Shown piece by piece: positions 11,387 through 13,983 of a stretch of DNA of 64,000 bases. A program made the position numbers and the translations under genes. Each line of letters opens with the position of its first letter. Positions within the stretch are counted from its first letter, which is position 1. Location of the stretch: positions 1 to 64,000 of the forward strand of contig JAENYD010000003.1 of NCBI GenBank assembly GCA_016842005.1, in the 5' to 3' direction. The notes under the pieces are model-generated. The model saw only the letters and a program-made list of their open reading frames with translations, was not told the origin of the DNA and did not search any database. The DNA is from Clostridium thermobutyricum (GTDB taxonomy: Bacteria > Bacillota > Clostridia > Ch29).

Positions 11387-11950
11387 TTAAAATAAAAGGA
11401 AATTTTTCAGTATCTCTTTCCCGCAGTTTGTAGATATAGACTCCGGGTGAAATTGCACGCCAAATACAGGATATTTTTTGTGCCGTAATCCCATGACTTC
11501 CCCCTCGGGACTTTGAGCCGTGACTTCCAGTTCATCCGGAATAAACCCGCTGTCCACAACCAGAGAGTGATATCTCATCGCCCTTAATGGATTTGCAATT
11601 TTCTTGAACAACCCCCTTTCATTATGATGGATCATAGATGTTTTCCCGTGAAGCAAATATTTGGCATGTATAACACGCCCTCCAAACACTTCTCCTATTA
11701 CCTGATGTCCAAGGCATACTCCAAGGATGGGAACATCCTTTCCAAATACACGCACCACCTCCGGTGAAATCCCTGAGTCCCCGGGATAGCCCGGGCCCGG
11801 GGAAATAATGATGTGGTCAATATCCATCTGTTTTAACTGTTCCAGTGTTACGGCATCATTTCTGTAGACCCGAACATCCGGATTGATTTCCCCGACATAT
11901 TGATAAAGGTTATAGGTGAAAGAATCATAATTATCAATTATTATAATCAA
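11387..11950 (-). CDS. trpG: anthranilate synthase component II (glutamine amidotransferase)
   Basis: This 187-residue class I amidotransferase supplies ammonia from glutamine to TrpE. The nucleophile Cys is in GVCLGHQ, with the catalytic His and Glu in HPESI near the C-terminus, and the N-terminal IIDNYDSFTYNL is typical. In other Firmicutes such a subunit can also serve aminodeoxychorismate synthase (PabA); position between trpE and trpD argues for tryptophan. It overlaps trpE by four bases. Confidence 0.95.
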   Translation of the reverse strand: MIIIIDNYDSFTYNLYQYVGEINPDVRVYRNDAVTLEQLKQMDIDHIIISPGPGYPGDSGISPEVVRVFGKDVPILGVCLGHQVIGEVFGGRVIHAKYLLHGKTSMIHHNERGLFKKIANPLRAMRYHSLVVDSGFIPDELEVTAQSPEGEVMGLRHKKYPVFGVQFHPESISTNCGKEILKNFLLF

Positions 11951-13419
11951 GATATATCCTCCTCCGTTTTTCTTATGGCCTCTATGAGGGCCTGAGCCTT
12001 GTTGAGGGTTTCATAGTATTCATTTTCCGGACGGGAATCGGCTACAATGCCGGCACCTGCCTGCATATAAGCTGTTCCATCCTTGAATATTATCGTTCTT
12101 ATGGCAATGCATGTATCCAGATTTCCATTGAACCCAAGGTACCCTACAGCTCCGGCATATACACCTCTTTTCCTGTTTTCCAGCTGATCGATGATTTCCA
12201 TTGCCCTTATCTTTGGTGCTCCGGATACCGTTCCAGCAGGCAAACAGGATATCAATGCATCGAACATATCGCAATCAGGCCTTATTTCCCCGGTCACATT
12301 TGATACAATATGCATCACATGGGAATATTTTTGAATGTCCATGAACGGATTAACTGTTACCGTTCCAAACTTTGATATTTTTCCTATGTCGTTTCTTGCT
12401 AAATCAACCAGCATCAGGTGTTCCGCCAGTTCCTTCCCGTCTTTCAACAATTCTTCAGCATATTTTTCATCTTCCACAGGGTTTTGTCCCCGGGGTCTTG
12501 TTCCCGCTATCGGGCAAGTCTCTACAATATTTTCCTTCACTTTGACCAGCAGTTCAGGGGACGAACCCACCAGCTGATATTCTCCGAAATCTATATAGTA
12601 CATATAAGGTGAAGGATTGATGTCCCTTAGAGTTCTGTAGACCCGGAATGGATTTGCCTCTGTTTCTACCTGTAACCTTTGTGACAAAACAACCTGATAT
12701 ATATCCCCGTTTTTTATATATTCCTTTGCCCGCAAAACCTTTTGCATATAATCTTCTTTGGTTTCATTGCTCGAATATATCAGCCTTTTCCAACCTCTTC
12801 CCTTGTCTTGCTTCATACTATAATGGCTTTCGGATATTTCTTTCCCCAGGGAATGCAATCTCTCTACTGCCCTTTTATATGAAGCCTTTATGTCACCGGA
12901 TACTGGCATATTTACCACCATTTTTATCTTTTGCCTTGCATGGTCAAATACAATAACTTCTTCGGTGAGCATTAGATTCACCTCCGGCATTTCCATATCA
13001 TCCAGGTTTGTATTTCCTAAATGCTCATGGTTTCTTGTGACATCATATCCTATGTATCCCACCGCCCCTCCCGTAAAATCAGGCATGTCAGATATCCGGG
13101 GTGTTTTATAATCGTTTATTAGCGATTTTACAATTCCCAGCACGCTTCCGGATTTGACATAGGTTTTATCCCTTTGGTGCACAACCACACGGTTACCGTA
13201 ACTTCTGACTGTTATAAACGGATTTCTTCCGATATAAGAATATCTGCCGCATTTATTGCCTGATTCAAGGCTCTCCAGCAAATAACCATTTTTGTCCCTG
13301 CACAGTTTTTTAAACAGAGTAACCGGTGTTTCCATCCCTCCTTCCATTTCCATAAAAACAGGTATCATTCTTGAAGTTTTACCGAGGTCCTTGAACTCTT
13401 CAAAATCTGTATAATTCAT
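11947..13419 (-). CDS. trpE: anthranilate synthase component I
   Basis: The 490-residue chorismate-utilising subunit makes anthranilate with TrpG. The C-terminal catalytic domain carries PIAGTRPRG, SHVMHIVSNVTG and PAGTVSGAPK. The N-terminal LLESLESG matches the LLES motif associated with tryptophan feedback inhibition. The ORF track begins at a GTG at 13434. The ATG at 13419 is preferred because GAGGGGTGG precedes it. It is the first gene of the operon, 24 bp after the second T-box terminator, and is controlled by that leader. Confidence 0.96.
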   Translation of the reverse strand: MNYTDFEEFKDLGKTSRMIPVFMEMEGGMETPVTLFKKLCRDKNGYLLESLESGNKCGRYSYIGRNPFITVRSYGNRVVVHQRDKTYVKSGSVLGIVKSLINDYKTPRISDMPDFTGGAVGYIGYDVTRNHEHLGNTNLDDMEMPEVNLMLTEEVIVFDHARQKIKMVVNMPVSGDIKASYKRAVERLHSLGKEISESHYSMKQDKGRGWKRLIYSSNETKEDYMQKVLRAKEYIKNGDIYQVVLSQRLQVETEANPFRVYRTLRDINPSPYMYYIDFGEYQLVGSSPELLVKVKENIVETCPIAGTRPRGQNPVEDEKYAEELLKDGKELAEHLMLVDLARNDIGKISKFGTVTVNPFMDIQKYSHVMHIVSNVTGEIRPDCDMFDALISCLPAGTVSGAPKIRAMEIIDQLENRKRGVYAGAVGYLGFNGNLDTCIAIRTIIFKDGTAYMQAGAGIVADSRPENEYYETLNKAQALIEAIRKTEEDIS

Positions 13420-13442
13420 GTATCCACCCCTCACCTGTAAAA

Positions 13443-13556
13443 TAAAAAAAGCATTTCATCCCGTAAAACAGGGACGAAATGCTTTGCGTTCCGCGGTGCC
13501 ACCCTCGTTAGATGTAGTACGTCTATAAAATAGGCGACAGGGTTTATATCCGGAAA
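13443..13556 (-). promoter_or_regulatory. second (duplicated) T-box antiterminator/terminator module
   Basis: On the minus strand a second GGTGGCACCGCG T-box motif (13492-13503) is followed by a terminator, GCATTTCGTCCC pairing with GGGATGAAATGC and then a run of seven T residues. Only about 55 nt separate it from the first terminator, too short for a second Stem I. Its sequence resembles the first module from CCGGAT through the terminator arms, so it looks like a local duplication of only the expression platform. Confidence 0.85.
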
Positions 13557-13850
13557 TCAAAAAAACATTTCATCTCCCATAGGACGAAATGTTTGAATTT
13601 CGCGGTGCCACCTATATTAGACAGTATTACTATCCCACTCTTGCAGGTACGGAAATAGATCCGGCTATTTCGATACCCTGTCTCTGTAACGTGAGACTTA
13701 CGGCAAGTGATACTCTCCGGGGATTTCCCACTGCTTCTCATGGAACCATTCGGCAAGCATATCCGGACCGGGCTTTCACTATTCCCGGCTCGCTGTACCT
13801 TCATGTCCTGCTTACTCTTTCCAGTCATAGAATTTAGGAGATATTTTATA
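13557..13850 (-). promoter_or_regulatory. tryptophan T-box riboswitch (Stem I plus first antiterminator/terminator)
   Basis: On the minus strand the leader begins with a Stem I region containing GAGTAAGCAGGA and AGTGAAAG elements. It carries a TGG specifier triplet (13746-13748) in the context GAATGGTTCC. The T-box motif GGTGGCACCGCG lies at 13601-13612. Its terminator is AACATTTCGTCC with GATGAAATGTT and a T run ending near 13557. The Trp specifier agrees with the trp operon downstream: uncharged tRNA-Trp would stabilise the antiterminator and allow transcription. Confidence 0.93.
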
Positions 13851-13852
13851 GA

Positions 13853-13882
13853 ATTATAATACAGGCCGTGCGATCCTGTCAA
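13853..13882 (-). promoter_or_regulatory. sigma-A promoter of the trp operon
   Basis: Read on the minus strand, TTGACA (13877-13882) and TATAAT (13853-13858) are both consensus, separated by 18 bases. They lie immediately upstream of the T-box leader. Confidence 0.85.
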
Positions 13883-13954: not shown

Positions 13955-13983
13955 TTGACATCTCAATATATATTGCATATAAT
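13955..13983 (+). promoter_or_regulatory. sigma-A promoter of the aro operon leader
   Basis: TTGACA and TATAAT are both perfect consensus with a 17-base spacer. It diverges from the trp promoter 72 bp away and drives the leader peptide region. Confidence 0.9.

Follow-up and report, generated by a model that had tools for sequence, protein, structure and literature searches.

A partial tandem T-box before trpE of Clostridium thermobutyricum and a candidate docking helix shared by its two modules

T-boxes with duplicated terminator-antiterminator elements were reportedly described by Vitreschak et al. in 2008 (RNA 14:717). In partial tandem T-boxes of this kind, as in the trp leader analysed here, two antiterminator/terminator modules follow a single Stem I. 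These T-boxes form a known class that is seldom discussed, to which the initial annotation of this DNA had already assigned the locus. Their mode of action is listed as unknown in the part of a 2020 review that deals with them (PMC7583486). The full tandem T-boxes of the trp operons of Bacillota have the same genes, the same ligand and two serial transcriptional decisions, but there every unit carries an aptamer and is regarded as acting independently, whereas the leader described here has a single aptamer (PMC12452182). The Rfam T-box family (RF00230) also resembles the leader, in that module 1 aligns to the full length of the model with a score over the gathering threshold. On the other hand, this model treats the stretch between Stem II and Stem III as single-stranded, contains no docking hairpin, and leaves module 2 unreported.

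The window, i.e., the whole stretch of DNA that was analysed, comprises 64,000 nucleotides of C. thermobutyricum (contig JAENYD010000003.1 of assembly GCA_016842005.1), and the trp leader lies on its minus strand. It starts from a sigma-70 type promoter, TTGACA-18-TATAAT (13853-13882), which matches the consensus at 12 of 12 positions; shuffled sequences are expected to yield about as many sites, and the case for this promoter consists of its position and its perfect match. Back to back with it, on the plus strand (13955-13983), stands a perfect TTGACA-17-TATAAT promoter of a divergent DAHP synthase/aromatic operon. At the other end of the leader is trpE (11947-13434, minus strand), the first gene of the trp operon, for which an ATG at 13419, following GGTGAGGGG, looks likelier as the start than the listed GTG at 13434.

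A cmscan search with RF00230 found a single T-box above the gathering score in the leader, at 13837-13577 (103.5 bits against a cut-off of 93, E 1.8e-23, model positions 1-219), and this complete riboswitch (13577-13837) includes Stem I, II, IIA/B, III and antiterminator 1. The alignment places the only Stem I of the leader at 13736-13837, with the specifier UGG (Trp) in its specifier loop (13746-13748), in agreement with the trp operon downstream, and the Stem II and IIA/B region, which ends in CGUUA, at 13686-13735. Inserted relative to the model between IIA/B and the Stem III of module 1 is a hairpin (13645-13678; GGGUAU-C-GAAAUAG...CUAUUUC-C-GUACCU) with a predicted energy of -12.4 kcal/mol and a 5' GGGUAUCG strand, referred to here as the docking hairpin. 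The fold then gives Stem III of module 1 (13620-13634), antiterminator 1 (13580-13613, with the T-box bulge UGGCACC at 13610-13604), and terminator 1, or T1, with its U run (13559-13594), of which the stem (13594-13563) has 12 pairs and a predicted energy of -12.4 kcal/mol and is followed by a T run.

The second module repeats the downstream part of this structure. The two GGTGGCACCGCG motifs, which had been placed about 110 bp apart, are separated by 109 nt on the minus strand (TGG bulges at 13610 and 13501), and this two-motif pattern, which the window contains once, did not arise in any of 100 shuffles. Antiterminator 2 (13470-13505) has its T-box bulge UGGCACC at 13501-13495, preceded by a weak hairpin resembling Stem III (13509-13530), proposed with low confidence from the fold, and is followed by terminator 2, or T2, with its U run (13444-13485). 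The stem of T2 (13485-13448) has 15 pairs and is followed by a T run, and its predicted energy of -22.5 kcal/mol makes it, by prediction, a stronger terminator than T1, which argues against the possibility that the second terminator is inactive; a terminator search found two in the leader, where shuffles lead one to expect 0.4. In the tRNA-Trp of this genome (anticodon CCA), a discriminator G precedes the terminal CCA, and the UGGC bulges of both modules are a Watson-Crick match to this GCCA end.

Module 2 returned no T-box match with RF00230, even when the threshold was relaxed to E<=1, and the stretch from the end of T1 to the second bulge, about 58 nt, is too short for a Stem I. The search and the length together rule out a Stem I hidden in 13504-13556, and the leader thus lacks the Stem I in each unit that defines a full tandem T-box. 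The initial annotation is borne out by the cmscan search, the folds and the terminator search in its description of a partial tandem T-box before trpE, with one Stem I carrying UGG and two antiterminator/terminator modules. Matches to Ref64 and CRISPR-DR22 were below the cut-off and were taken as chance, the former falling on T2.

What had been overlooked is a link between the modules, given that the gap at 13504-13556 carries a strand complementary to the insert of module 1. The 5' strand of the docking hairpin, GACAGGGU (13682-13675), is the exact complement over 8 bp of ACCCUGUC (13543-13536) in module 2. This strand belongs to a longer module-2 docking strand, AUUUC-CGGAUAUAA-ACCCUGUC (13536-13557), in which AUUUC or, alternatively, UCCGG may add an offset 5 bp beside the 8 bp helix by pairing with GAAAU (13671-13667) or with the loop sequence CCGGA (13664-13660), respectively. 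The leader has two features of a grouping proposed here, the docking-helix partial tandems, namely the hairpin with a 5' GGGUAUCG strand and the module-2 complement of that strand (8 bp plus 5 bp). The predicted long-range duplex has an energy of -21.7 kcal/mol, and the contiguous 8 bp helix alone was equalled in 2 of 100 shuffles (p about 0.02).

The uninterrupted CCYGUAYC consensus of the relatives is absent from module 2 of the window, which reads UUUCCG, about 7 nt and then ACCCUGUC; in the family relative G001, module 2 reads UUUCUGUACCCG. When the window and G001 are compared by inspection, layers 4-6 of the long-range helix are A-U/C-G/A-U in one and C-G/G-U/G-U in the other, and the module-1 partner is mismatched at the same layers. 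The docking helix is missing from a plain minimum-energy fold of this leader: nearest-neighbour energies under constraint are -64.1 with the local hairpin against -56.5 with the docking helix enforced, and in the minimum-energy fold CCUAUUUUAUAGAC of module 2 pairs competitively with the 5' arm of antiterminator 1. Given the insert and a docking fold that lies above the energy minimum, the case for the helix at this locus depends on its relatives, chiefly G001, and the putative docking helix can be considered well supported for the class and moderately supported for the trp locus. The ACCCU of the docking strand (13543-13536) is also complementary to the AGGGU of the 5' arm of antiterminator 2 (13505-13501), and the linker fold of module 2 gives a similar pairing, which might keep antiterminator 2 closed until the docking strand pairs upstream.

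The relatives were collected from the GTDB species set by searching for pairs of T-box motifs that are spaced by 65-125 nt and enclose a T run, a pattern found in at least 118 loci. Three of these (L020, L105 and L110) were set aside by inspection as chance matches, with tRNA-like sequence beside the motif and no T-box anatomy, leaving at least 115 candidate partial tandem loci. Among the matches listed, where downstream genes were named by eye from their first residues, most precede amino-acid ABC permeases of Lactobacillales (of the his transporter type, by reading), and others precede aroF/trpE/trpD, SSF and NSS transporters, argG, ilvD/ilvB, and lysA-like, livK-like and argC genes. The Clostridial signature of module 2 was present in 49 of 399 genomes of a phylum sample. 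In the window's own family, trpE was detected in two of six genomes, both of which carry the partial tandem, the sole relative with the gene (G001) having the same arrangement before a TrpE that is 48% identical.

Several other leaders were noted as well. The genome of the window has a second partial tandem T-box (L008, G000:C4:3444-3664, minus strand), with two GGTGGTACCGCG motifs and one Stem I, before a gene resembling ilvN and then ilvC. Three serial antiterminator/terminator modules stand behind one Stem I in L037 and in L137/L143, in the contexts of an NSS-type transporter of Paenibacillus alvei and an SSF-type transporter of a class relative, respectively. In G001, the partial tandem T-box is separated from aroF-trpE by what looks like the remnant of a group II intron maturase ORF (L181, G001:C24:24300-28300). 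Finally, the leuS T-boxes of at least three genomes, from two families, harbour a whole tRNA-Ala(GGC) gene within the apical loop of their Stem III. The specifier of these T-boxes reads CUC by eye and LeuRS is encoded downstream; the tRNA gene was found by ARAGORN at 1658-1733 in L253 and 1656-1731 in L266 and read by eye just upstream of the T-box motif in L246; this tRNA is not the cognate ligand of the leuS T-box, and its processing would cut the leader.

Across the class, module 2 appears to contain a strand complementary to one 5' strand (plus loop) of a helix that precedes, or forms, the Stem III of module 1. The same arrangement recurs in three groups that are unrelated in sequence, and in each of them a leader's own strand pairs scored better than permuted pairs (0/5000 in each case, with permutations that ignore phylogeny). 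In the Clostridial group (36 leaders, of trp/aroF, SSF, PaaK-like and other genes), the 5' strand is GGGGUAUCGGA or GGGGAUAUCGGA, and the strands of both modules are GUACC or GUAUCC to match. The bases of the 5' strand, module 1 and module 2 vary together, the triples at layer 1 being G/C/C in 17 leaders and A/U/U in 16 of the 36, and layers 1-3 are paired in 35, 34 and 33 of 35 leaders with module 2 and in 34, 33 and 27 with module 1. The duplex energy is -17.9 for own strands against -14.2 for permuted ones (0/5000), and the apical part alone, i.e., module 2 against the inner strand and loop of the hairpin, gives -6.7 against -4.6 (0/5000). As this loop part covaries by itself, the proposal that the module-2 strand is a mere duplicate of the 3' strand of module 1 is insufficient. 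In 35 of 35 leaders the long-range duplex, with the costs of loop closure left uncounted, is stronger than any fold that the module-2 linker forms privately, and in 33 of 35 it is stronger than the local hairpin. The private folds of module 2 amount to -10 to -15 kcal/mol in some relatives.

The his leaders of Lactobacillales (56 non-redundant sequences) mostly have a helix of 11-17 bp, with mixed Watson-Crick pairs at most layers; L048, L041 and L119, at 11-16 bp, are examples of a helix stronger than that of the window. When 12 layers are considered, each is paired in at least 46 of the 56 leaders, and layer 8 is occupied by A-U in 18, U-A in 16, C-G in 8 and G-C in 7. The helix score is 23.1 for own strands against 15.1 for permuted ones (sd 0.43, 0/5000), and fixed anchors without optimisation give 9.0 against 6.6 pairs of 12 (0/5000). 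Sliding the anchored strands by 1-3 positions lowers the paired fraction from 0.75 to 0.36-0.57. In the other 40 leaders, which have short linkers, it is the region of the module-1 Stem III that module 2 complements (e.g., L140 and L060), and this shared Stem III has an energy of -19.0 against -16.1 when permuted (0/5000). An uninterrupted-helix score over all the non-his loci was weak (123/5000), owing to a C.C mismatch that is conserved in the Clostridial helix and to the use of Stem III by other groups, and the matter was resolved by the anchored and group-wise tests. These comparisons show a predicted long-range helix with a shared 5' strand that is kept by compensatory change across partial tandem T-boxes. 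No description of such a helix was found in the literature searched, Vitreschak et al. 2008, which may mention the pairing, being outside that search, and as far as can be told it is an undescribed feature of this known class.

The position of the helix is also conserved. The distance from the docking strand to the T-box motif is 37 and 36 nt in the two modules of the Clostridial group (medians) and 36 and 35 nt in those of the his group, so that antiterminator 2 would take the place of antiterminator 1 relative to Stem I/II when module 2 docks. The docking hairpin is missing from nearly all single T-boxes, in which the distance from CGUUA to TGG has a median of 40 nt in this genome and 39.5 nt in the family, and is 49 nt in the singles of other genomes that have Clostridial partial tandems; the median is 69 nt in the Clostridial partial tandems themselves, and the distance is 81 nt in the window.

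Given this, the trp leader is probably a Trp-specific T-box in which one tRNA-reading aptamer would be handed between two serial expression platforms, with trpE transcribed only once both have been passed. Uncharged tRNA-Trp on Stem I would stabilise antiterminator 1, allowing the polymerase to pass T1, and the emerging strand of module 2 would then capture the docking 5' strand and displace its module-1 partner, a capture for which the loop bases could be the toehold in many relatives. T1, by then harmless to the polymerase, may fold and release the acceptor end of the tRNA, and antiterminator 2, at the same spacing from the docking helix, would be offered the same tRNA, a failure at this point leading to a stop at T2. 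In replacing module 1, module 2 would cause a single tRNA bound to Stem I to be checked twice, and read-through, which would need both checks, would be the product of two decisions, i.e., a serial AND of one sensor, with tighter repression and a sharper, steeper or proofread response as the predicted effect. How one aptamer would serve two decisions had been left unclear, with two tRNA binding events as one suggestion. The comparative data suggest that a single Stem I is enough for both, since the 5' strand of the helix that positions the antiterminator beside Stem I/II has a choice of two 3' partners; on this view two bindings are not required, yet they may still occur.

Such a second binding would be the rule if module 2 were independent, with another uncharged tRNA-Trp, or any tRNA ending in GCCA, meeting antiterminator 2 without a Stem I. 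The intact bulge and antiterminator suit this account, as does the variable bulge base, on which the two modules agree in 118 of 146 relatives against 57 expected, an excess due mostly to class composition. It would leave unexplained, however, the covarying long-range helix, the equal spacing and the absence of the hairpin from single T-boxes, and contacts with the acceptor end of a tRNA alone are weak and unspecific, which makes independent action unlikely; the hand-off is preferred to it chiefly because the spacing from strand to motif is equal.

The long-range pairing might instead turn module 1 off, with the strands of module 2 dismantling Stem III or antiterminator 1 once T1 has been passed, for example to recycle the tRNA or to fix the read-through state. 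The linkers of 40 relatives, complementary to the region of the module-1 Stem III itself, are consistent with this, and so is the pairing of the window's linker with the 5' arm of antiterminator 1 in the minimum-energy fold, but a switch of this type has no need for a conserved equal spacing, nor for a conserved and intact second antiterminator and terminator. As the whole explanation it is improbable, and it may be one half of the hand-off mechanism. Given that trp operons are often preceded by full tandem T-boxes (PMC12452182), module 2 could also be what is left of one that has lost a Stem I, a backup terminator with little control by tRNA. This appears very unlikely, as the architecture, with intact antiterminators, is kept by at least 115 candidate loci across many lineages and gene contexts, and a relative whose TrpE is 48% identical has the partial form too.

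Extended to the class, and put forward tentatively, the hand-off would make partial tandem T-boxes serial riboswitches in which an exchange of strands, at a docking helix or Stem III that the modules share, passes the aptamer between platforms, the same tRNA being interrogated two or even three times in a form of RNA kinetic proofreading. The Rfam T-box model, together with surveys of tandem riboswitches that require a full aptamer in each unit, misses a sizeable class of leaders. The covarying helix turns the question of how they work into a concrete model with exact bases to mutate, which would account for the fact that Stem I is not duplicated, and a leader of this type offers a natural design in which one sensor would drive two or three serial switches.
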